From Caenimonas soli (lineage in GTDB: Bacteria; Pseudomonadota; Gammaproteobacteria; Burkholderiales; Burkholderiaceae_C), in assembly GCF_013155545.1 (NCBI RefSeq), contig NZ_JABJVV010000006.1:62001-126000 (forward strand): 64,000 bases of DNA. The letters run 5' to 3'. The position numbers and the translations under genes were made by a program. Every line of letters begins with the position of its first letter. Within the stretch, counting starts at the first letter, position 1. Under the pieces are notes generated by a model. The model saw only the letters and a program-made list of their open reading frames with translations. It did not search any database and had not been told where the DNA came from. Of the stretch, positions 6,073 through 62,161 are shown one piece after another.

Positions 6073-7836
6073 ATGAGCCAGGGGGATACCACCGCCGCCA
6101 GCGCCGACGCGAGCGACGAACTGATCGCGCGCAGCATTGCCATGATCCTGCCCCAGTCGCGGGCCGGAGCGGCGACCGCCATCGTGCTGGGCGCCATGTT
6201 CGGTTTCCTGTTCGTTCCGGCGGCGGGATGGGCGCCGTACCTGGCGTGGTACGGCATCGTTGCTGCCGGCTTCATCGGCAGGCAGGTCTACTTCGAGAGG
6301 CAGGTCGCCCGGCAGGGTGCGACGCGGCGCAGCCTGTTCCTGATTGCCGCCGTATCCGCGGTGACGGGATGGATGGCGGTGGCCTGCGTTCCGCTGTTCG
6401 CACGCTTCCTGTCCGTCGCGGACATCGGCGTCCTGACCATTGTCATGGTGGGATGGATCGCCCTGGCGGTTTCGGTGCTCGCCGTGCAGCCCAGGATCTA
6501 CCTAGCCTACATCTTCGCGTGCCTCGCGACCGTGTATGTGGGGTGGATGTGGCACGCCAATAGCCGTGACCTGATCATCATCGGGCTGGCCATGATCCTG
6601 GGCGGCCTGATGCTGGCGCGCCTGGCACGCACGATCTGGATGCAGTTGAGCGATACGGTGCAGCTGGGCCGGGCCAACGCCGACCTGGTCGGGCAGCTGC
6701 GCACCTCGCTCGCCATGCAACAGGAGGCCCAGCGTTCCCGATCGCGCTTTCTTGGCGCCGCAAGCCACGACCTGCGCCAGCCGGTACAGGCGTTGTTGCT
6801 GCTCGCCGATATCTTTCGCCGTTCATCCGACACCGACAGGCGGGAAACAGTGGCCCTGCAGATGGCGCGCACGGCGGAATCCATCGACTCCATGTTCAAG
6901 GGACTGGTCGACCTGGCGCAGATCGACGCCGGGACGATGAAGGTCGCGCTCCAGCCCCTTCACGTCGAGCAGCTGGTGCAGGGCGCCAGCCTGGGTTTCC
7001 CCGAGAAATGCGCGGTCAAGGGGCTGTTCTTTCGCATCAAGGCACCTCCGGACGCCGGCGGTCTGACGGTTTCGGCCGACGCGGTGTTGCTTGAACGCAT
7101 TCTTCGCAACCTGCTGGACAACGCCTACAAGTTTTCGCTCAAGGGAGAGATCGTGCTCGAGATTTCCTCCCAGGCATCGCACGCGCTCATCGAGGTACGC
7201 GACCAGGGCATCGGGATGGACGCTTCCGATCTCAAGCAGGCCTGCAACGCCTTTTTCCGCGGGCGCTCCGCCAGCGTCGCCGAGGCTGAGGGAATCGGCC
7301 TGGGGCTCGCGATCTGCAAGCACATGGCCGGCCTGATGGGTGCCGAACTCACGTTGGAATCGAGGGTGGGAGCCGGGACGCGGATCGCGCTGCGCCTGCC
7401 CATGGCCAGCATCACGAGCGTCTCCACGGCCCGCGCCGAGCGCTTGGCGGCGCTGGCGGGCATCACCGTGGCCGTGATCGAGGACGACCGGATCGCCCGT
7501 GAGGCGCTCAAGCTCTGGCTGGAGGAGGCCGGCGGCCGGGTGATCTGTGCTTCGGGCCTGGACCAGCTGCTGTCTTCCTTGCGCGACGCCGGCGCGACGC
7601 CTGATTTCATCGTGGCCGACTACCGCCTGGCCAGCGGCAATGGCCTCGCGGCGATCCAGCGGCTGCGCACGGAATATGGCGCGGTGCCGGCTGTCATCGT
7701 TTCCGGCGAGCGCCATCTTGCCCTCGACGGCTACGGCATTCCGGTGCTGCAGAAGCCCGTGGCGCCGCAGCAGCTGATGGAACACATCTGCTCGGCCTTG
7801 CCTGCCGGCGCCCAGCAACCGATGGAGTACCCGTGA
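6073..7836 (+). CDS. Hybrid sensor histidine kinase with C-terminal receiver domain
   Basis: A 587-residue membrane-bound kinase. About five or six hydrophobic segments lie between residues 33 and 182, with no large periplasmic domain, so it may sense a membrane or intramembrane signal. The HisKA domain has the phosphoacceptor H232 in ASHDLRQPVQ; the HATPase domain shows the N box (NLLDNAYKFS, near 346), G1 box (RDQGIGM) and G2 box (GIGLGLAI). A receiver follows (about 463-575) with acidic residues E470-D472, phosphoacceptor D516 and K561. The last codons overlap the GTG of the three-enzyme fusion by 4 bp (GTGA), so the kinase and that enzyme are very probably co-translated. A LuxR-type response regulator lies convergently beyond the enzyme and may be its partner. 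Confidence 0.92.
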   Translation: MSQGDTTAASADASDELIARSIAMILPQSRAGAATAIVLGAMFGFLFVPAAGWAPYLAWYGIVAAGFIGRQVYFERQVARQGATRRSLFLIAAVSAVTGWMAVACVPLFARFLSVADIGVLTIVMVGWIALAVSVLAVQPRIYLAYIFACLATVYVGWMWHANSRDLIIIGLAMILGGLMLARLARTIWMQLSDTVQLGRANADLVGQLRTSLAMQQEAQRSRSRFLGAASHDLRQPVQALLLLADIFRRSSDTDRRETVALQMARTAESIDSMFKGLVDLAQIDAGTMKVALQPLHVEQLVQGASLGFPEKCAVKGLFFRIKAPPDAGGLTVSADAVLLERILRNLLDNAYKFSLKGEIVLEISSQASHALIEVRDQGIGMDASDLKQACNAFFRGRSASVAEAEGIGLGLAICKHMAGLMGAELTLESRVGAGTRIALRLPMASITSVSTARAERLAALAGITVAVIEDDRIAREALKLWLEEAGGRVICASGLDQLLSSLRDAGATPDFIVADYRLASGNGLAAIQRLRTEYGAVPAVIVSGERHLALDGYGIPVLQKPVAPQQLMEHICSALPAGAQQPMEYP

Positions 7837-10800
7837 ACAAGAAGGAAGCGAAAGACGCGGGCGCGCAGCCCCTGTCGGTCTCCTGGCGCGACTGGGTTGC
7901 GGGCTTTGAAAAATGGAACTGGGCCGACGGCGCCGACGCCCCCGCTTTCGATGCGATCGTCGTGGGCTCGGGCTATGGCGGCAGCGTCGCGGCCCTGCGG
8001 CTCGCCGAAAAAGGCTATCGCACGCTCGTTATCGAACGCGGCAGCGAGTACCTTCCCGGCGATTTTCCCAACGACTTCTCCCTGGTACCGAAGTATTTCC
8101 GCGTCAACCTGCCGGGCAGGGGCGTGCCGGCGGGCCGTGCCTCCGGGCTGGTCGAAGTCCACGTCGGCCAGGGCCTGGTCGGGGTCACCGGCAACGGCTT
8201 GGGCGGCGGCAGCCTGATCAATGCCGGCGTGGTCATCCAGCCCGACAAGGACGTTTTCGACCAGCCGCAGTGGCCGGCGGCGCTCCGGGATCGGGAAGGA
8301 AAAACCGACGACGAATGGGCGCTGCAGCGGTACTTCGACCAGGCCCGCTCCGAATTGGGAAGCGCGCTGTGGGAATCAGGCCTTCCTGGCAACCAGGCCC
8401 TTTGCAAGTCCGTGGCGCTGCAGCGGCTGGGAGAGCGGCTGGGAGAGGGCGGCGTATACAAGACGGCCGAACTGACGATCGACCCATCTCGCTGCGCCCG
8501 TTGCGGCGATTGCGCGGCCGGGTGCAATCGTCCCGATGCCAAGAAGGCGCTGGCGGCGACCTACCTGCAAAAGGCGATGAAGACCGGTCTGGTGCAGATC
8601 GTCACGCAGGCGGAGGTCTACCGGTTCGAGCGCAGTGGCACCGAAAATCAGCACCGGGGCTGGACGGTTCGGGTGTTTTCAACCGACGTTCAGCATCAGT
8701 ACCTGTCGACGCGTGAGTTGTTCAACGAAAAATCGCCGGCCCCGACCGCCCGCAAGCTCACCGCGCCCAGGCTGTACCTGTGTGCAGGCACCTTCGGCTC
8801 CACCCAGCTGCTGCAACGATCCCAGGCGCTGGCAGACCGCTGCCTGGCGTTTTCGCCCGCGCTGGGCACGCGCCTTTCAGGGAACGGCGACAGTATTTCG
8901 GTCAGCGCCAACGAGCCCGACATCGCCAACAGCGTGGGTCTCGGTGACAAAGGCCTGCGGGAATGGGATGCGTGGGACCGTGACGGGACTGCCCCGCAGC
9001 GCGACCACATCGTCGGGCCGACGATCACCGGCATGATCGATCTGCGCGGCCGGCACCAGCCCCTGGAAAAAAGGATCCTGATCCAGGACGCCGCGATTCC
9101 CACGGCGATCGCCCAGGCCTATCGTGAGCTCCTCGCCACTGCCTGGTCGCTCAAGCAGCTGGGAGACTGGTGGTTCGAACGCCCCTTCGGCCCGCGCGGC
9201 AAGGATGCCGAGGATCCCTTGGCGGCCGGGACGATGGCCGACCACACACAGGTGCTCCTGGCGATGGGGCACGACGGTTCGCCGGGCCGGATCGTCTGGC
9301 TCGAGGGCGATGACCGGTCGGCGCCGTATCTCCTGAATCCCGAACAGCTGGGGGTGTATGTCGAGCAGCAACGGCTGTTCGACAAGATGGGCAAGAAGCA
9401 CGTCCATAACCCGCTGTGGCGAGTGCTGCCCGAGGCCGCCCTGGACGCGATGGACGGACCCAAACCGCCTCAGACCATCACCACCGTGCATCCGCTGGGC
9501 GGCTGCGTGATGAGCGAGCACCCGGACAACGGTGTGGTCGATCACCTGGGGCGAGTGTGGATGCACGACCCAGGCCGGAGATTCGTGAGCGCCGATGCGG
9601 TGCAACCGCCCTTGAACGAAGGCTACGCGAATTCGCCGCGCACCTACAAAGGCCTGTACGTGATCGACGGCTCCATCGTTCCGACATCGCTGGGGTGCAA
9701 TCCGCTGCTGACCATCACGGCCCTGGCGGAGAGGGTGATGGCTCATTTGCCTGCCAACGACGTCCGCAGGACACCGCCGCAGCCTGCGGCTTCGCCCGCC
9801 CGGTCGCCCCGGATCATGCCCTCCACGGATGTGGCTGTGAGCGCCAGGCTGAACGAAGTGCTGGTGGGGCGGGCCATCGAGATCGGCGGGGAACTGGCCG
9901 ATGTACTGCGGGGCCCCCGCGTAGTCGCCCGGTTTTCCGCCAGCTTCGAGGCGCCGAACCTGCTGCAGGCGATGCGCCAGGAGCGCCACGGCATCGCCCC
10001 CAAGGCCGAGCTCGCGTTCGGGTGCGGCGACGATCCCAGCGGCTCCGAGGCGGCGGCCCTGGTCTACGAAAGCGAAGGCGAAAGCAACATCTTCGAGCCC
10101 CTGCCCGCGAACTGGGGCAGTGCCGGGCCATGGCTGCTGATGCGTTCCCTGCTCGAACTGGCCGCGTTGCCGGTAATGGTGCTGGCCGCGATAGCGATCG
10201 CCGTTAACCACGGGTTCACGGCCAAGGCATTTGCGATTCTCGCGGCGGCCCTCATCGTCGCCGCCATCGCCGTGGTGCTCCTTCCCTTTTGGCGGACGGT
10301 TCTGACCTGGTTGGTGCTGCGCGGCGCGAACGACTGGCGCGACCGCGACCAGGCGGTACCCGTTTTGCGATCGCTCCGGCAATGGCTCTTCCGGTTTCCC
10401 GGACTGCTCAAGCAATGGATCCACGCGACCGAAAAGCGCGTGATGCGCTACCGCATCCACATGCGCCGCAAAACGGTGCCTGGCGAGGCCGGGCAGGGCA
10501 AGGGCAAGGGCCCGAGGGTGGCCGGCCGCATCACGCTTTATGCCACCAAGCGGGTGGCCTACCGGGCCAGCCTGGGCGAGTTCGTGAGCTGGCTGCTGGG
10601 GCGCAGCCCGCAGCTGCGTCCCACCTTCTGGGAGCAGGTGATGGACGCCGATGTGCGGGTGGTCCGCGCAGGCCGGCGTTCCTGGTGGCCGGCGCTGGCA
10701 AGAGGTCGCTTCAGCATGGGGTTCGACAACCTGCTCGCCACAAGCCGCAGCGACGCCGCTGGACGCTCGCGGCCCGGCGCCATGGAGTTGCTCGAGAGGG

Positions 10801-13800
10801 GTGACAGCACTTCCGGCATGCTGGCCCTGGCCTCGTACCCGCTGCTGTTCCTGCGTTTCGCCCTCAAGACGCGCCTGCTGGATTTCCGCCTGCCCAACTA
10901 TTCCGGCCTTCCTGTGTCCGACAGCGCCTCGCAGGAAGACACGCGGCTGCGCGTGCCGGGTGCAGCGGCGTCGGATCCGGGCATCGTGCCGGAACTGGTA
11001 TGGCTCGAGGATGTGGAGCGCGGCAAGTCGACCAGCGATCAAGGCGACGAACCGCAGGGCTCGTTGCGCTTGCCCCTGTGGCGTTACAGGCGGCGGGAGA
11101 CCGGGCGGCCCGAGGTGAACCCGGAGGCGGAATGGCTCGGTATTCCCGTCGCCCGCGCGAAGTCCGTTCTGCTGGTGCACGCCTTCGGGCAGTCCGGCCT
11201 TTCGTTCACCTTCAAGCAAACCGGCCGGAATCTTGCCGAGCACTTCTACGAGCAAGGCTATGAGGTGTGGGTCCTCGAAACCCGAATGTCCACGCGCACC
11301 GCCTATGCGCTGCAGCCCTCGACGGTGGATCAGATCGCCCAGTACGACATTCCTGCAGCCGTGTGCAAGATCACGGCGCTGCTGAAGGACGAACTGCAGG
11401 CGCATCACCCCGTGCAGATTTGCGCGTTCGCCCAGTGCATAGGGGCGGCTGCGCTGTGGATGTCGCTGCTGTCCGGAAAATTGAGCTATGGCAAGGCGCC
11501 GGCGGGCACGGCGGCTGCGGCAAAAGGCGTTGCCACCCCGCAGTTGTCCATGATTTCGCATGCGATGTTCAGCCAGGTTCACCCCTGGATGGTCGGCTCC
11601 CCGGTGACGCGCGCGAAGACCTGGGTGCCCGCGCTGCTGCGCTCGCTGTTCAACCGCGGCACGGTGCCCTTTTCCGTTCGAGGCGGACAGGACGGATGGT
11701 TTGCGCCGCTCATGGACCGCGTCTTCGCGAGCATGCCCGCGCCTCCCGGGGAAAGCCGGCGTCCGCGCGGCGATGACGACGCCGCGGCGACTTGCAGGCG
11801 GATCCGCTATATCGAGGCGCCGCTTTTCCTGCACAAGAATATCAACGATGCCACGTTCCTGGCCATGAACCGGCTGTTCGGCGACGCGAACATCCGCTTG
11901 TTCGCGCATGCCCGCCGGTTCGTGGAGAAGGGGAAACTGGTGGACGAGGATGGCGTCAACGTCTACGTGACGGAAGCCCATATCCGCAAGCACCTGGCCT
12001 TTCCGATCCAGCTTCTGCACGGCGAAAAGAATGAACTGTTCGACGTCGACAGCGCCAGACACTCGTACCAGATGTTGCGCGCCATCCATCCGGAATGGAT
12101 CGATCAGTTCGCGCCCGAGGCCGGCATCGTCCAGGGATATGGCCATGTGGACGTACTGATCGGGCAGGATGCCCCCGCGGACGTTTACCCGCGCGTATCG
12201 GCATTCTTCGACAAGGCATTCCAGGCAGGCCCTCACAGGGTGGCTGCGGCAGGGCCGGTCGGCTGGACCTTGCGGGCGCCAAGAATCGGGCCGTTCCTGG
12301 GGTGGGTGCGCCCGGAAAATGGCCGCATCGCCATGCGGCTGTCGTTCATCCTTGACGACAAGGAAGGCGCCGCGCTCGGCGACACCGCGCAGCCGCGTGT
12401 GCTGGTGCGGTATCGCAAGCCCGGCGGCAAGTGGACCAGCCTGCCGCCGGAGCAGTGGCGATACAGCTTTTACGATGCGAGGGGCCACGGCGAGGACCAG
12501 CAGGCGAGCGGGCCGGGGAACAAGGGTGCGGTGGTGCTGCGTGCGGTGCGTGTCGACGTCCTGCTCGACAAAGACGCGGCCGAAGGGTCACTCCAAGTCC
12601 TTTCCTTGCATCAAGTCAGTCATCCGGCTGTCGAGCCGCTGCCGGACCACCCGGACGACGAGGCCATCGACAGGTTTTTCGAGACGGTGCTTGGCCAGAC
12701 CCGGGGACCGGCGCCGGTCGGCCAGGGCAGCGGCGGACGCCGTTACATCGGGTTCGACGCTGCCGAGGTGGCTGTACCTACCGCCGCGTTGGCGACCCTT
12801 GGGAGCGGAGCGGACGTGAGTTTTTCCGTGGCCTGCTGCCGCCATCCGGGGTTCGGCCCGGACCAGGGCCGCGTGGACCGAAGCGTGGACCGCATGCTGT
12901 GCGAACATGAAAAGGAGCCGCTGGCCTTTGCGATGCTCCTGGGCGACCAGATCTATGCCGACGCGACCGCCGGGTTGGTCGACCCGACCAGTCCGCTGGA
13001 GCGTTTTTACGAGCGGCACGAAACCGCCTTCTCCGCCCCCGGCATGCGCCGATTGCTGCGAACGCTGCCCACCTACATGACTCCGGACGACCACGAGTGG
13101 ATAGACGCATACCCGAGCGGCAGTCCGCTGGTCAAGGAGCGCTGGCCGGACTGGACTTCCAATTCCGGATTCGCGTCGAGACAGAAGCGCGCATTCCGGG
13201 TGGCCACCAATGCATTGACGGCATTCCAGCGCTTCCAGCGCGGCGGCAGTTACCGCTCTTATGCGTACCAGCATGGCTGCGTACGGGTCTTTGTGATCGA
13301 TACCCGGTTTGCTCGCCAACGCAATTCGCCCTCGATCGTCAGCCCCGGCGTCATGGCGAGCCTGCGCAACTGGCTGCAGGCGCCTGAGGCGCGCGATTGC
13401 CTGAATGTCGTCGCGTCGGGCTCGGTAGTGCTGCCGGGCCTGCGACCGGATGCCGATCCCGCCAATCCCGGCGTCATCGATACCTGGCAGTACGCGCCGC
13501 AGGAACGCAGCGAGTTGCTGGAAATGCTGGTGCAGCACGCCGGCGGCGCATTCCTGCTGCTGTCGGGGGACTATCACGTGAGCGCCGCGGCGGAAATCCG
13601 CTGCGACGGCAGGATCGTGGGGGCCGCGATCGTCGCACCGCCGTTGTATGCGCCGCTGCCCTACGCCAATGCCACCCCGGAAGCGCTGGACCTGGAAGAG
13701 AACATCCGGTTGCGCAGCGGCACCATGGACATGGCGGTGCCCGCAGGAGCGGAGGGGGCGAGAGGTTCCGGTTGGGGCCGCATCTCGGTGCGCAAGCTTC

Positions 13801-13949
13801 CGGTGGGTTTCGAGATCACCTACGGGCGCGACCTGTGGACCTGGGAGGCGGCTCTCGGCCAGCAGCCACAGGCCGTCATCCGCTTGCCCGGTTTTCCGCT
13901 GCCCGCGCCGCTGCAGGCGCCGGCCCAGGATTCAGCAACCGTGGCCTGA
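7833..13949 (+). CDS. Three-enzyme fusion: GMC oxidoreductase, alpha/beta hydrolase, PhoD-like metallophosphatase
   Basis: This 2038-residue protein joins three enzyme modules. (1) A cholesterol-oxidase-like GMC flavoprotein, about 38-640: FAD loop GSGYGG at 45-50, GNGLGGGS near 121, a Cys cluster CxxCxxCxxxC at 221-231 as in this GMC branch, and the conserved His (HPLGG, H553) and Asn (GCNPLLT, N623) of the active site. (2) A linker with two membrane segments (768-790, 798-820) forming a hairpin. (3) An alpha/beta hydrolase, about 1105-1465: LLVHAFGQS near 1113, nucleophile elbow AQCIG with Cys1202, acid candidate D1404, His1438. (4) A PhoD-like domain, about 1655-2005: GDQIYAD near 1704, PDDHEWID near 1751, SGDYHVS at 1911-1917. 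There is no signal peptide. Both soluble parts should face the same side of the membrane. The domains are recognised; the substrate is unknown, a lipid or sterol-like compound being a guess. It starts with GTG coupled to the kinase gene. Confidence 0.88.
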   Translation: MNKKEAKDAGAQPLSVSWRDWVAGFEKWNWADGADAPAFDAIVVGSGYGGSVAALRLAEKGYRTLVIERGSEYLPGDFPNDFSLVPKYFRVNLPGRGVPAGRASGLVEVHVGQGLVGVTGNGLGGGSLINAGVVIQPDKDVFDQPQWPAALRDREGKTDDEWALQRYFDQARSELGSALWESGLPGNQALCKSVALQRLGERLGEGGVYKTAELTIDPSRCARCGDCAAGCNRPDAKKALAATYLQKAMKTGLVQIVTQAEVYRFERSGTENQHRGWTVRVFSTDVQHQYLSTRELFNEKSPAPTARKLTAPRLYLCAGTFGSTQLLQRSQALADRCLAFSPALGTRLSGNGDSISVSANEPDIANSVGLGDKGLREWDAWDRDGTAPQRDHIVGPTITGMIDLRGRHQPLEKRILIQDAAIPTAIAQAYRELLATAWSLKQLGDWWFERPFGPRGKDAEDPLAAGTMADHTQVLLAMGHDGSPGRIVWLEGDDRSAPYLLNPEQLGVYVEQQRLFDKMGKKHVHNPLWRVLPEAALDAMDGPKPPQTITTVHPLGGCVMSEHPDNGVVDHLGRVWMHDPGRRFVSADAVQPPLNEGYANSPRTYKGLYVIDGSIVPTSLGCNPLLTITALAERVMAHLPANDVRRTPPQPAASPARSPRIMPSTDVAVSARLNEVLVGRAIEIGGELADVLRGPRVVARFSASFEAPNLLQAMRQERHGIAPKAELAFGCGDDPSGSEAAALVYESEGESNIFEPLPANWGSAGPWLLMRSLLELAALPVMVLAAIAIAVNHGFTAKAFAILAAALIVAAIAVVLLPFWRTVLTWLVLRGANDWRDRDQAVPVLRSLRQWLFRFPGLLKQWIHATEKRVMRYRIHMRRKTVPGEAGQGKGKGPRVAGRITLYATKRVAYRASLGEFVSWLLGRSPQLRPTFWEQVMDADVRVVRAGRRSWWPALARGRFSMGFDNLLATSRSDAAGRSRPGAMELLERGDSTSGMLALASYPLLFLRFALKTRLLDFRLPNYSGLPVSDSASQEDTRLRVPGAAASDPGIVPELVWLEDVERGKSTSDQGDEPQGSLRLPLWRYRRRETGRPEVNPEAEWLGIPVARAKSVLLVHAFGQSGLSFTFKQTGRNLAEHFYEQGYEVWVLETRMSTRTAYALQPSTVDQIAQYDIPAAVCKITALLKDELQAHHPVQICAFAQCIGAAALWMSLLSGKLSYGKAPAGTAAAAKGVATPQLSMISHAMFSQVHPWMVGSPVTRAKTWVPALLRSLFNRGTVPFSVRGGQDGWFAPLMDRVFASMPAPPGESRRPRGDDDAAATCRRIRYIEAPLFLHKNINDATFLAMNRLFGDANIRLFAHARRFVEKGKLVDEDGVNVYVTEAHIRKHLAFPIQLLHGEKNELFDVDSARHSYQMLRAIHPEWIDQFAPEAGIVQGYGHVDVLIGQDAPADVYPRVSAFFDKAFQAGPHRVAAAGPVGWTLRAPRIGPFLGWVRPENGRIAMRLSFILDDKEGAALGDTAQPRVLVRYRKPGGKWTSLPPEQWRYSFYDARGHGEDQQASGPGNKGAVVLRAVRVDVLLDKDAAEGSLQVLSLHQVSHPAVEPLPDHPDDEAIDRFFETVLGQTRGPAPVGQGSGGRRYIGFDAAEVAVPTAALATLGSGADVSFSVACCRHPGFGPDQGRVDRSVDRMLCEHEKEPLAFAMLLGDQIYADATAGLVDPTSPLERFYERHETAFSAPGMRRLLRTLPTYMTPDDHEWIDAYPSGSPLVKERWPDWTSNSGFASRQKRAFRVATNALTAFQRFQRGGSYRSYAYQHGCVRVFVIDTRFARQRNSPSIVSPGVMASLRNWLQAPEARDCLNVVASGSVVLPGLRPDADPANPGVIDTWQYAPQERSELLEMLVQHAGGAFLLLSGDYHVSAAAEIRCDGRIVGAAIVAPPLYAPLPYANATPEALDLEENIRLRSGTMDMAVPAGAEGARGSGWGRISVRKLPVGFEITYGRDLWTWEAALGQQPQAVIRLPGFPLPAPLQAPAQDSATVA

Positions 13950-13957
13950 GGCCGTTT

Positions 13958-14653
13958 TTACCTGGCGAGCGCCTCTCTCTTGTCCTGCGGTCCCGCGGCC
14001 AGGTCGTGGATGCTCAGCCCCGCACGGGCCACCGCATAGACGGCCTGGGTTCGATTGGTGAGGCCCAGCGCATCGAAGATGTGCGCGATATGCGTTTTGA
14101 CGGTGCCGTCCGAGATGCCCAGGTCCCGGGCGATCACCTTGTTCGGCTTGCCCTGGATCAGCGCCAGCAGCACCTCGCGCTGGCGCTCTGTCAGGTGCAC
14201 GCCCAGCCTGCTCCACCGGTCGGCGGCGTCGCGGCCGTTGGGCGTCCCGGCCGACGCAATGCTGAGGCAACTGGCGGGCAGGAACACGCCGCCCGACAGC
14301 ACCAGCTTCAGCGCCTGTTGCAGGGCCTCGGCAGGCGCGGCCTTCGGCAGAAAGCCGCACGCTCCCATGTCGATGCAGTGCTGGATGGTGCCGGGATCGT
14401 CCTGGCCCGACAGCACCAGCACCGGGATCTCCGGACACGAAGCGCGGGCGCGCTGCAGGGCCGAAAGCCCCGTGTAGCCCGGCATGTGGAGGTCCAGAAC
14501 CATCAGGTCCACCTGCAGGCCCGCCTCCACCCGCTCTAGCGCGGTATCGATCAGGCCGCATTCCACGATCTCGGCCGAGGGGTCGTTCGCATGCAGTGCC
14601 TGTACGACGCCCGCTCGAAACAGCGCATGGTCATCGACAACGAGGATTTTCAT
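13958..14653 (-). CDS. LuxR/NarL-family response regulator
   Basis: A 231-residue response regulator. The receiver starts with ILVVDDHALFRAG, has the phosphoacceptor D54 in VLDLHMPG and the conserved K104 (FLPKAAPAEAL). The C-terminal helix-turn-helix is the LuxR type (LTERQREVLLAL, then DGTVKTHIAHIFDALG). The frame opens at 14677, but the ATG at 14653 puts the receiver at residue 2, as is normal. It is convergent with the three-enzyme fusion, with only 8 bp between the stops. Together with the hybrid kinase on the other side it frames that gene, which makes it the likely regulator of the cassette; this is inference. Confidence 0.92.
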   Translation of the reverse strand: MKILVVDDHALFRAGVVQALHANDPSAEIVECGLIDTALERVEAGLQVDLMVLDLHMPGYTGLSALQRARASCPEIPVLVLSGQDDPGTIQHCIDMGACGFLPKAAPAEALQQALKLVLSGGVFLPASCLSIASAGTPNGRDAADRWSRLGVHLTERQREVLLALIQGKPNKVIARDLGISDGTVKTHIAHIFDALGLTNRTQAVYAVARAGLSIHDLAAGPQDKREALAR

Positions 14654-14762
14654 TTCTTTGCCCCTGTGAGAAGCCAAATGCTAACCTCTGATGAGCGGGC
14701 CAGGGCTACTCCTTTTGGCAGATGCGGGCCGCTCCCCAACGCGTCGCCGATAATTCCAACCT

Positions 14763-16032: not shown

Positions 16033-16719
16033 GTGTGGCAAGTACTGATAGTTGAGGACGATCCGACGACCCTGGCCTTTTTCGCCGAGGCCGTCTCTCG
16101 CAGCGACCGGCTGGTCCTGGCCGCCGGCGTGGGAACGCTGGCGCAGGCGAAGACGTGGCTCGACGACCCCTCGCACAAGGTGGACGTGCTCCTGACCGAC
16201 CTCGGGCTGCCGGACGGCAGCGGGCTGGCTGGTATCCGTCACGCGATGGCCCGCAACCCTGCGTGCGAGGTCTTGGTCATATCCATGTTCGGCGACGAGG
16301 AAAACGTGCTGGCCAGTATCGAGGCGGGCGCCCTGGGGTACATCCACAAGGACTCGACCCCGGACGACATCGCGCTGACCATCCTCGAAATGAAGGACGG
16401 CGGCTCACCCATCTCGCCGATGATCGCCCGCCGCGTGCTCGCGAAATACCGCGGTTTCCGCGAGGAGCCGCCAGCTGCGGCGCAGCCGGTCCCGGCCGCG
16501 CCGGGCGGGCGTGCACTCTCGCCGCGCGAACACGAGGTGCTGGAGCTGATCGCGCGCGGCTTTTCCTATGCCGACATCGCCCGGCTGAAGTCCGTCAGCG
16601 TGCATACGATCAAGAGCCACATCAAGAGCTTGTACGGCAAGCTGGCCGTGAGCTCGAAGAGCGAAGCGGTGTACGAGGCCACCCAGATGGGTCTGCTGAG
16701 GCCGCCGGGCAGGACGTGA
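16033..16719 (+). CDS. LuxR/NarL-family response regulator
   Basis: A 228-residue response regulator with GTG start. The receiver opens with QVLIVEDDPTTLAFF; phosphoacceptor D56 lies in LLTDLGLPDGSG and the conserved Lys in GYIHKDSTPDD. An Ala/Pro-rich linker (about 148-162) leads to a LuxR-type DNA-binding domain (LSPREHEVLELIARG, then SVHTIKSHIKSLYGKL). The gene is 27 bp upstream of a sensor kinase of the matching NarX/DesK-like class, so the two form a likely two-component pair. The palindrome at 15940-15959 may be an autoregulatory site. Confidence 0.92.
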   Translation: MWQVLIVEDDPTTLAFFAEAVSRSDRLVLAAGVGTLAQAKTWLDDPSHKVDVLLTDLGLPDGSGLAGIRHAMARNPACEVLVISMFGDEENVLASIEAGALGYIHKDSTPDDIALTILEMKDGGSPISPMIARRVLAKYRGFREEPPAAAQPVPAAPGGRALSPREHEVLELIARGFSYADIARLKSVSVHTIKSHIKSLYGKLAVSSKSEAVYEATQMGLLRPPGRT

Positions 16720-16746
16720 GGAGCGCGCGGCCGCTACCATGCGGCC

Positions 16747-18582
16747 ATGAACTGTCGCGTGTTGAGGAATATTGCAGCGGGCCTTTTCGCCGTCCTGGCG
16801 CTGGCCGCCGGCGCGGCGACGATTGAACTGACGCAGGCCCGCGCCACGATTTCGGTAGCGGGCGCTACGACACTCACCCAGGTGGTGCTGCCCTACCATC
16901 TGGATCGCGAACAAGGCACCCGCCCGGCCCAGGCCACCTTCGAGATTCCATTCAGCATTTCCGGGCAGGTGGACCAGCCTTGGGGCCTGTACCTCGCGCG
17001 CGTCGGCAACAGCGCCGAGATCTGGCTCAATGACAGCCTGCTGGCCCAACTGGGCGATATCCGTCAAAGCAACGCCGCCGACTATTCCAAGGCGCCCCAG
17101 TACCTGCCGATCCCGGCGCGCCTGCTGGAGCGGGAGAACCTGCTCCGGATCCACGTGCGAGCCGACGGTGGGCGGCGCGGCGGGCTGTCATCGCTGGTGG
17201 TCGGCCCGGACCACGAAGTCAGGCCACTGTTCGCGCAGGCGTCCCGCTGGCGCATGTCCGCCTCGCTGGTGGTGGCGGTCTTCAGCCTGCTGGTGGGAAC
17301 GATTGCGCTGGTCCTGTGGGCGACGCAGTCCGACCCTGGGCGCGATACGCATGTGCGCGACAGCATCTACCTGAGCGCCGGCGTTGCCGAATTCTGCTGG
17401 GCCCTGCGCGTGGGCGACATCGCCATCGACCATCCGCCGCTGCCGTGGCCGGTCTGGGGCGTGGTGGTGACGGCCGCATTCGCCGGCTGGATTTGCTGCA
17501 TCGCGCTGTTTTGCCACCATGTGGCGGGCTGGCACCGTCATCCCCGCATGCCCTGGATGCGGCTCACGCTCTGGTCGCTGTTCGGCAGTTCGATCCTGGC
17601 CTCGTCCCTGGGCTATGCGCTGAACAAACCCCTGTTCCTCACGGCGTGGCTGGGTTGCGCCAACCTTTTCTTCATCGGCTATGCCACGGTCTACCTGGTG
17701 ACGGCGCTGCGTACCCCGACCACGGCGCGCGTGCTCGTGGGATTGGCGGGAGCTGTGAACGTGATGGTAGGCGTGCGTGACTGGGTCGCGATCCGGATCA
17801 GCGGCGATTACTCCCAATCGACCTGGATTCGCTACTCGTCGGTACTGTTCGGGCTGGCGCTGGGTTATATCGTCATCATGCGCTTCCGGTCGGCCACCGT
17901 GCAGGCCCGCGACCTGATGGCCAACCTGTCGGCCCGCGTCGCCGAAAAGGAGAAGGAACTGTCCCTGAGCTACGAACGGCTCGAGCAGATGGCGCGCGAA
18001 CAGGAGCGCGCGTCGGAGCGCTCCCGCATCCTGCGCGACATGCACGACGGCGTCGGCTCGCACATCAGCTCGGCGATCCGCCAACTCGAATCAGGCAGGG
18101 CCGACGGCGACCAGGTGCTGCAGACGCTGCGCGACTCGCTGGACCAGCTGAAGCTGTCGATCGACGCCATGAACCTGGCGCCCGGCGACGTCACGGCCTT
18201 GCTGGCCGGGATGCGCTACCGGCTTGAGCCGCGTTTCGCCGCCTCGGACGTGGAACTTCAATGGCATGTGGACGAGATCGCCGCCGTGCGCGGCCTCGAC
18301 GGGTCCGCGATGCGGCACCTGCAGTTCATGGTGCTGGAAGCCCTGTCCAACGTGTTGCAGCACGCCCGGGCCCGGGTGTTGCGCATCGAGGCGCGCGCCC
18401 GCGGCGAGGGGGCGCACCTGAAGATCATTGACGACGGCTGCGGCTTCGACCTGGCGCGGCCGCTGCGCCAGGGGCTGCTTTCCATGCACGAGCGCGCCGC
18501 TGCCATCGGCGCCACGTTGTCGCTGGAGAGCCAACCAGGGCGCACGGTGGTGGATATCCTGCTGCCGGGCAAGGCTGCTTGA
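16747..18582 (+). CDS. Sensor histidine kinase with periplasmic beta-domain and multi-TM sensor (7TMR-DISM-like)
   Basis: A 611-residue sensor kinase. It has a signal peptide (about residues 8-23), a periplasmic beta-rich domain (about 25-160; the WLNDSLLAQLG segment resembles jelly-roll carbohydrate-binding-like sensor domains), then about seven hydrophobic segments between 171 and 380. A coiled coil (about 388-425) precedes the dimerisation/phosphoacceptor helix with H433 in LRDMHDGVGSHI, typical of HisKA_3-type kinases that pair with LuxR-type regulators. The ATPase domain has LEALSNVLQHA (N box) and DDGCGFD (G box). The pairing with the response regulator just upstream is strongly suggested by adjacency and class. 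The ligand is unknown. Confidence 0.9.
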   Translation: MNCRVLRNIAAGLFAVLALAAGAATIELTQARATISVAGATTLTQVVLPYHLDREQGTRPAQATFEIPFSISGQVDQPWGLYLARVGNSAEIWLNDSLLAQLGDIRQSNAADYSKAPQYLPIPARLLERENLLRIHVRADGGRRGGLSSLVVGPDHEVRPLFAQASRWRMSASLVVAVFSLLVGTIALVLWATQSDPGRDTHVRDSIYLSAGVAEFCWALRVGDIAIDHPPLPWPVWGVVVTAAFAGWICCIALFCHHVAGWHRHPRMPWMRLTLWSLFGSSILASSLGYALNKPLFLTAWLGCANLFFIGYATVYLVTALRTPTTARVLVGLAGAVNVMVGVRDWVAIRISGDYSQSTWIRYSSVLFGLALGYIVIMRFRSATVQARDLMANLSARVAEKEKELSLSYERLEQMAREQERASERSRILRDMHDGVGSHISSAIRQLESGRADGDQVLQTLRDSLDQLKLSIDAMNLAPGDVTALLAGMRYRLEPRFAASDVELQWHVDEIAAVRGLDGSAMRHLQFMVLEALSNVLQHARARVLRIEARARGEGAHLKIIDDGCGFDLARPLRQGLLSMHERAAAIGATLSLESQPGRTVVDILLPGKAA

Positions 18583-60994: not shown

Positions 60995-61053
60995 AAATAC
61001 TGGTCGGGGTGAGAGGATTCGAACCTCCGGCCTCTACGTCCCGAACGTAGCGC
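60995..61053 (-). repeat. 3' fragment of tRNA-Pro (59-bp direct repeat, candidate attachment site)
   Basis: These 59 bp are identical to 62079-62137. Positions 61001-61053 are the 3' 53 nt of tRNA-Pro: CCA end, acceptor 3' strand, T arm, variable loop and anticodon arm. The identity ends abruptly at 61053, where the D arm should begin, so this copy cannot work as a tRNA. An intact tRNA and a 3' fragment in direct repeat are the usual scar of an element integrated at a tRNA 3' end. The stretch 60858-61341 holds no convincing gene apart from this fragment. Confidence 0.88.
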
Positions 61054-61341
61054 CTCCCCTGGGAACTCAACCTTGCCATGCAGCCTGAGCGGCTGGTCTG
61101 TGTAGCAGAGGCTGCCATTGTAACAAGCGGTACCCCCTGCGGGACTTGAGGGTTTACCTGTGCCGCCGATCACTCTACGCGGGACGACAAAGGGACGCGC
61201 ACCGAAGGTCAACGACATCCACGGTTGGCAGCCGGTTCGTTCTCAATTTGAGGTTGAACTAGCAGCCACACTATCGCTGCATCCGGCCGGCGGCGCTGAG
61301 GACGATCGGTTCGATGAAGCAGGCCCAGGACGCTACGCGAG

Positions 61342-61977
61342 CTAGCGCGCCGGCGCGCTGAAGGTCTTGAGCTCGCTGTCGCGCCGTCCCGGGCCCTGCA
61401 CATGCTTGTCAGTGCGCTGCAGCGCCTGTTTCACGAATATGCCGTGCTCGGGACTGAACCACTGCAGGTTCTCGTTGCCAAGGGTGTCACTTGTGCGCAC
61501 GCGAAAGACCTTGAACGTGCCGGCCGGCACCGTGACCTCTTCGTGCGCCTCGACGGTCTGCCGCGCCTCAAAGGCCGTTTCCTGATTCTGCGGGTGGACC
61601 TTAACCTTGTACTGACGCGTCCAGGACTTGCCGACTTCCAGCGGCCAGTCCCAGGAGAGCGGCGGGTCCCAGCTTAACGCCGGCTTGCCATCCCTGCCGA
61701 GCACGGTGACCCAGTTGCCATTGGGCATTGCCAGCAGCGTCGTTTGCGGCCCTTCGAACGCGATCATCTCCCGGCCCTCCCAGATGCGCTGCGCACGGCG
61801 GCCGGGCACATCGAAGCGGCCATTGCCGTAACTGCCGCTGTCCTGCTGCTGGGTAATCCAGGTGGCGCCGACAGGTGGCGCCACGTAGCGATCGACGCGA
61901 GGCGCCGAGGCGCAGCCGGCCACCAGCGCCAGGACCAGCGCGGTCGCAGCAGTCCAGAGAGCGTGGTTGTTGTTCAT
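61342..61977 (-). CDS. Putative lipoprotein of unknown function
   Basis: A 211-residue protein with a lipoprotein signal ending in the lipobox LVAGC (Cys22). The mature part is rich in Trp and beta-prone sequence (WDPPLSWDWPLEVGKSW, then VTVPAGTFKVFRVRTSD), resembling small periplasmic beta-barrel or DUF3108-like domains; I cannot name the family with confidence. The frame opens at 62031, but the ATG at 61977 has AAGGAG. It is the only gene between the two copies of the tRNA-Pro repeat, and so may be cargo of a lost or decayed integrated element. Confidence 0.78.
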   Translation of the reverse strand: MNNNHALWTAATALVLALVAGCASAPRVDRYVAPPVGATWITQQQDSGSYGNGRFDVPGRRAQRIWEGREMIAFEGPQTTLLAMPNGNWVTVLGRDGKPALSWDPPLSWDWPLEVGKSWTRQYKVKVHPQNQETAFEARQTVEAHEEVTVPAGTFKVFRVRTSDTLGNENLQWFSPEHGIFVKQALQRTDKHVQGPGRRDSELKTFSAPAR

Positions 61978-62078
61978 TGTTCGCTCCTTTCCATTAGCAG
62001 CGAAGAATAGTCGACGCACGCCGGACTTCAAGGAAGGGCTTCAGTTCGCCGAGGATGCCTGCCAATGGAATCAACGAC

Positions 62079-62137
62079 AAATACTGGTCGGGGTGAGAGG
62101 ATTCGAACCTCCGGCCTCTACGTCCCGAACGTAGCGC
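62079..62137 (-). repeat. Second copy of the 59-bp direct repeat, within the intact tRNA-Pro
   Basis: This copy is identical to 60995-61053 and covers the 3' two thirds of the functional tRNA-Pro gene plus 6 bp beyond its CCA end. The two copies lie in direct orientation 1084 bp apart. Confidence 0.9.
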
Positions 62138-62161
62138 TCTACCAGGCTAAGCTACACCCCG
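62085..62161 (-). tRNA. tRNA-Pro (anticodon CGG)
   Basis: A 77-nt tRNA with encoded CCA. The acceptor stem pairs CGGGGTG with CACCCCG. The anticodon arm CTACG-TTCGGGA-CGTAG shows the anticodon CGG, and the T arm has GGTTCGAATCC. The D arm is GCTTAGCCTGGTAGAGC. It lies 27 bp beyond the ispB stop on the same strand. Confidence 0.97.

Follow-up and report, generated by a model that had tools for sequence, protein, structure and literature searches.

What can a single bacterial polypeptide do that joins three kinds of enzyme, and is such a joining real? The question is raised by a 64,000-nucleotide stretch of DNA from Caenimonas soli (contig NZ_JABJVV010000006.1, positions 62,001 to 126,000), here called the window, in which a gene at 7833-13949 (forward strand) encodes a GMC oxidoreductase, an alpha/beta-hydrolase-fold module and a PhoD-like metallophosphoesterase in one chain of 2038 amino acids. 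As judged from the sequence, three intact catalytic modules are present in this chain, and a hybrid histidine kinase directly upstream, together with a response regulator nearby, accompanies it across deep divergence. With about even confidence, the fusion is read here as a cytosol-facing, membrane-associated three-step enzyme that would act on a lipid-like alcohol or ester and would be coupled to its own phosphorelay.

The frame opens with a GTG start and runs for 2038 codons without an internal stop, as a previous sequence-only reading of this DNA had reported, and full-length homologues bear that claim out: seven, with 38-55% identity, and five, with 26-28%, can be aligned over the chain, the one at 38% coming from a Gammaproteobacteria metagenome-assembled genome (MAG). 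Since long open reading frames (ORFs) arise by chance in GC-rich DNA, the claim of a fusion rests on homology and not on length. An antisense ORF of 1203 amino acids (8877-12488, reverse strand) lies opposite the fusion and is likely a GC-rich shadow frame. The fusion is real, conserved and built of known enzyme kinds, and its linkage to other genes is more interesting than its length. The loci analysed, which were chosen from search matches and not at random, comprise 26 fused loci (three modules in one frame, one of them a second copy within the same genome), 22 split loci (the phosphatase in an adjacent ORF of its own) and 18 without PhoD. Five further sequences, in which GMC and hydrolase are not in one ORF (L037, L038, L039, L043, L070), were omitted from the 66-row tree.

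The first module exceeds the curated Pfam cut-offs for both GMC_oxred_N (residues 42-332) and GMC_oxred_C, and it carries the glycine-rich flavin adenine dinucleotide (FAD) motif GSGYGG at residue 45 and the His/Asn pair, with HPLGG at 553 and Asn623. His553 is kept in 66 of 66 rows and Asn623 in 65 of 66. When module profiles built from 13 full-length chains were compared with the PDB, the best match of this module was to cholesterol oxidases (E 2e-41; PDB 4u2l, 1b4v, 1coy), which are likewise FAD-dependent GMC enzymes with the His/Asn pair but, unlike the fusion, have neither its four-cysteine motif at that place nor a hydrolase or PhoD module. The cholesterol oxidase equivalog NF058674 was rejected as an assignment, scoring 125.4 bits against a cut-off of 850. 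The four-cysteine motif, CX2CX2CX3C, had been overlooked by the sequence-only reading; all 66 of the 66 relatives retain its cysteines. By spacing, not by structure, Cys221, Cys227 and Cys231 (intervals of 6 and 4) correspond to Cys212, Cys218 and Cys222, which hold a 3Fe-4S cluster in the catalytic subunit of another GMC enzyme, the FAD-glucose dehydrogenase of Burkholderia cepacia (PDB 6a2u), according to PMC6719666. While that enzyme has three ligands, Cys224 of the fusion would be a fourth, and a 4Fe-4S cluster is predicted. The best sequence stretch that the two proteins share is the FAD motif only. In L039, a GMC-only relative in the window's own genome, His replaces Cys224.

The hydrolase region is not covered by any Pfam model at E up to 1, so that the domain search places the GMC and PhoD modules above their cut-offs while this module needed a family profile. 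The best PDB matches of that profile are gastric and lysosomal acid lipases (PDB 1hlg, 1k8q, 6v7n; E 3e-7 to 2e-5), and the HxD motif around the catalytic His aligns. Acid lipases use a Ser nucleophile with Asp and His, whereas the fusion has Cys1202 at the nucleophile elbow and Asn1400 at the usual Asp position, the Asn-Asp match being read from the motif. Cys1202 and His1438 are kept in 67 of 67 rows and Asn1400 in 66 of 67 (the 66 loci and one stand-alone Rhodococcus hydrolase), and the acid lipase family proper was rejected on these grounds. Polyhydroxyalkanoate (PHA) synthases, whose triad is Cys-His-Asp, were also rejected: a PhaC Pfam match is absent at E up to 1, and Asn stands where Asp is expected. 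The motifs given by the sequence-only reading for its three modules are confirmed, and the modules are intact, with the amendment that the elbow nucleophile is a Cys and the acid position an Asn. From a biochemical perspective, a Cys nucleophile with Asn at the acid position is unusual for the alpha/beta-hydrolase fold. Plain ester cleavage is therefore not the sole option, and acyl transfer would be at least as likely as hydrolysis.

The third module matches Pfam PhoD (PF09423) at residues 1694-1946 with 54.7 bits against a gathering cut-off of 27, and its profile retrieves Bacillus subtilis PhoD from the PDB (2yeq; E 1e-14). Its motifs are GDQ at 1704, DDHEW at 1752 and GDYH at 1912. Of the residues checked in the 26 fused rows ten are invariant, while 25 rows retain Asp1913, 24 retain Gly1912 and 22 retain Ser1917; Cys1669, Asp1705, Asp1753, His1754 and His1915, which have metal roles in PhoD, are kept in all 26. 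Decayed copies occur among the split rows, namely in L092, which also has no kinase, and in L080, where PhoD is broken into two frames. The PhoD family, as described in PMC4223295, releases phosphate, and one member, from Streptomyces chromofuscus, is a phospholipase D, which fits a lipid substrate. PhoD and this phospholipase D share PF09423 and the active-site residues with the fusion; they are exported (PMC4223295), whereas the fusion has no hydrophobic N-terminal stretch and no Pfam match to PhoD_N. Related phosphoesterase-like genes stand beside two PhoD-less GMC-hydrolase genes (L066:7200-9014, below the Pfam cut-off, and L110:732-2048, without a Pfam match), a weak hint that phosphoester chemistry may belong to the pathway.

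Between the first two modules, the middle region (residues 656-1104) had no significant match in a PDB profile search, a single match standing at E 0.31. The membrane hairpin noticed here by the sequence-only reading is present, at residues 767-830, and proves to be specific to a clade: 6 of 66 loci have a hydrophobic stretch of hairpin size and a seventh locus from their clade (L024) has a shorter one, while 11 other loci have a single hydrophobic stretch of 19-26 residues and the remaining loci none. Because of this restriction the hairpin is not essential and was rejected as a defining part. The first 60 residues of the fusion have no hydrophobic stretch by hydropathy, and a hairpin would return the chain to the same side of the membrane; the catalytic sites are therefore tentatively placed in the cytosol.

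The chain is neither unique nor confined to Caenimonas. Of the 48 genomes surveyed in the genus, 16 give a match to the full profile at E 1e-20, eight with the one-frame triple chain and eight split; one genome has both forms, one has a fragment only, and G363 carries its GMC part on a separate contig. Among 250 genomes of the family, 50 reach E 1e-20, and 11 of these have the triple chain, with the frames checked; in a sample of the phylum 28 of 299 match at E 1e-10, with the triple chain only in the window's own genome; in these two surveys the two best candidates per genome were scored, so that misses are possible. The triple chain is further found in Hydrogenophaga sp. NFH-34, a Burkholderiales MAG, a Gammaproteobacteria MAG and Ensifer. 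RefSeq holds one triple-chain protein, WP_205239617.1 of Ensifer sp. PDNC004 (1908 amino acids), which has all the modules in a single frame and bears only the name "alpha/beta fold hydrolase", and the RefSeq names of the family members encountered reflect one domain only. Members of at least three phyla (Pseudomonadota, Bacteroidota and Spirochaetota) carry the two-module chain. On the 66-row tree, made by a quick method, with long branches flagged for L029 and L080 and odd composition in several rows, the fused state needs five changes and the presence of PhoD one; the third module has changed repeatedly between fused and separate. A search of the literature for the fusion or its context, which left most subscription papers outside and is weak evidence, returned no paper describing or characterising it; PMC12542777 concerns a glucose-oxidising GMC enzyme and not a three-enzyme fusion. 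The earlier suggestion that the three-module chain is undescribed thus holds as far as this search reaches, and the idea of a unique fusion falls with the 26 fused and 22 split loci, the chain being commoner than had been thought.

The strongest clue to function is regarded here to be a pair of genes just outside the coordinates considered by the sequence-only reading, which overlooked them. The kinase has the HisKA, HATPase and receiver domains of a hybrid two-component system, with H-, N- and G-box and receiver motifs, and the regulator is of the LuxR type. When the window kinase and regulator were used as tblastn queries, both turned up next to the gene in distant loci whose genomic position differs. 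In a domain map of 71 sequences, with a kinase profile built from up to ten of the mapped loci, a hybrid kinase stands no more than 600 nt away in 24 of 26 fused and 19 of 22 split loci (43 of 48 that bear PhoD) and in 0 of 18 PhoD-less ones, and it is on the same strand as the enzyme in 42 of 43. A LuxR-type regulator lies within 4 kb, in several arrangements, in 24 of 26 fused, 10 of 22 split (34 of 48) and 1 of 18 PhoD-less loci, a count that includes the weak regulator of L077. Moreover, a kinase is present in 25 of 28 PhoD-bearing loci that were fetched after the link had been seen, chosen by enzyme matches only and outside the kinase profile. In one locus from a one-contig genome (L079:5403-12731), kinase, GMC, hydrolase and PhoD form one frame of 2443 codons, with the kinase motifs present. 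Within the genus, 12 of the 16 genomes that have an enzyme match hold a window-type kinase, versus 3 of the 32 that have none (hand-compiled table; Fisher p 9e-6, ignoring relatedness). Across 42 loci, distances in the kinase tree agree with those in the enzyme tree (Mantel r 0.93, a value reached in 0 of 2000 permutations); the test retains shared species history, and the kinase tree, made with FastTree, has long branches.

Several points weigh against the reading as a whole or against a tight coupling. Since a single branch carries both the change in kinase presence and that in PhoD presence, the contrast of 43 of 48 with 0 of 18 amounts to far fewer than 66 independent events. The enzyme stands without the kinase in L064, L065, L092 and L097 (L099 is cut by a contig end), L033 has its kinase split between two frames, no regulator is near in 12 of the 22 split loci, and the Ensifer triple chain, unlike that of the window, has neither kinase nor regulator beside it, its divergent neighbour being an AAA_16/Guanylate_cyc protein. 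Conversely, eight genomes with another module (L115 is one) keep a window-type kinase-regulator pair beside rodA with no enzyme in between, three genomes without any enzyme match also keep the pair, and L114 has a further window-type kinase with neither enzyme nor regulator near. The two structure models, made from four-row alignments, reached confidence (pLDDT) values of 37.9 and 35.0 and are unusable for the geometry of the cysteines and the fold of the middle region.

The features of the locus are collected in the following table.

Table. Features of the fusion locus, in nucleotide positions of the window
Feature	Position	Strand	Remarks
Hybrid histidine kinase	6073..7836	+	Hydrophobic N-terminal half, HisKA, HATPase, receiver; stop shares 4 nt with the fusion GTG
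Three-enzyme fusion	7833..13949	+	2038 aa
GMC oxidoreductase module	7947..9752	+	Residues 39-640; His553/Asn623
CX2CX2CX3C motif	8493..8525	+	Cys221/224/227/231; predicted Fe-S ligands
Middle region	9798..11144	+	Residues 656-1104; known relatives not found
Hydrophobic hairpin	10131..10322	+	Residues 767-830; clade-specific
Alpha/beta-hydrolase-fold module	11145..12257	+	Residues 1105-1475; Cys1202, His1438, Asn1400
Linker	12258..12818	+	Residues 1476-1662; corresponds to the N-terminal part of the separate PhoD ORFs at split loci
PhoD-like metallophosphoesterase module	12819..13847	+	Residues 1663-2005
Response regulator	13958..14677	-	Receiver and LuxR-type helix-turn-helix; convergent with the fusion

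Some further observations concern regulators and neighbours. In L111-L113 (genomes G026, G023 and G030), kinase and regulator lie convergently between yqiA and rodA without the fusion, as empty sites or losses. Just past rodA in the window, a second pair of regulator and membrane kinase occupies 16033-18582. Six PhoD-less GMC-hydrolase loci (L071, L103-L107) have a related neighbouring ORF in common, which in L103 is a Trans_reg_C/NTPase/TPR regulator, another pattern of a dedicated regulator. A role in defence was considered and dropped, PADLOC giving no match to the fusion and weak matches to the kinase and regulator only. The window also has two tRNA-Pro (cgg) genes at 61001-62161 (reverse strand), separated by about 1 kb.

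How the modules might act together can be proposed in steps. The GMC module would use FAD to oxidise a hydroxyl group on a hydrophobic substrate and would pass the electrons via an Fe-S cluster on its four cysteines, a route that would make it a dehydrogenase and not an O2-using oxidase. The hydrolase-fold module would form a thioester on Cys1202, the acyl group then being hydrolysed or, more likely for Cys, transferred, and the PhoD module would act on that same compound by cleaving a phosphodiester or phosphate. The membrane kinase may sense substrate, product or membrane state and, via the regulator, may set the expression of the fusion gene, whose start overlaps the kinase stop. Multi-step processing of a lipid-like compound, as the sequence-only reading had suggested, is plausible.

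The same modules could be those of a catabolic or scavenging enzyme, which would convert an imported lipid or sterol-like phospho-ester into phosphate, a fatty acid and an oxidised alcohol, with kinase and regulator as a nutrient-inducible switch. Two-component pairs often adjoin catabolic genes, which counts for this proposal. The relatives of the modules are also degradative (cholesterol oxidase, acid lipase, PhoD), and PhoD enzymes release phosphate, one being a phospholipase D (PMC4223295). The catabolic proposal is judged somewhat unlikely: neighbour clustering, with annotation that was not exhaustive, gave no shared transporter or catabolic gene, the hydrolase has Cys and Asn instead of Ser and Asp, and a cytosolic placement, drawn from hydropathy, is ill-suited to a scavenger. 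Another proposal, that the modules were joined for co-expression, act on different substrates and have no joint chemistry, with the kinase link an inherited position, could account for the pair standing alone beside rodA in several genomes and for the single branch on which both kinase and PhoD presence change. It is very improbable given that all three sites are intact at about 26% identity, that the modules stay side by side even when split, and that the kinase stays beside the enzyme at different chromosomal places in three arrangements.

The linkage also bears on a possible signalling role, in which a lipid-like signal made or removed by the chain would be read by the linked kinase, in the manner of synthase-sensor pairs. 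The synthase of the Cqs/Lqs alpha-hydroxyketone clusters is a pyridoxal phosphate enzyme unrelated to the fusion. In those clusters, according to PMC3376566, the synthase gene stands beside a membrane sensor kinase and in some cases a regulator, and this likeness, together with a kinase-enzyme-regulator linkage kept in three gene orders, the kinase-enzyme fusion of L079 and receiver-only loci that resemble listeners, speaks for a signal. The enzyme chemistry, however, is unlike that of known synthases, the ligand of the kinase is not known, and Ensifer has the enzyme without the kinase; a signal is accordingly held to be unlikely. It is similarly doubtful that the family represents a new class of lipid signalling, in which a three-site chain would make or erase the signal, the coupled hybrid kinase would relay it to the LuxR-type regulator, and some strains would keep the receiver half only.

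The reading of the fusion as a three-step enzyme coupled to its own phosphorelay predicts a GMC dehydrogenase with a four-cysteine Fe-S site and, in an acid-lipase-like fold, a Cys-His-Asn variant. If the linkage reflects function, the kinase and regulator would be a built-in reporter, and the substrate could be found by genetics.

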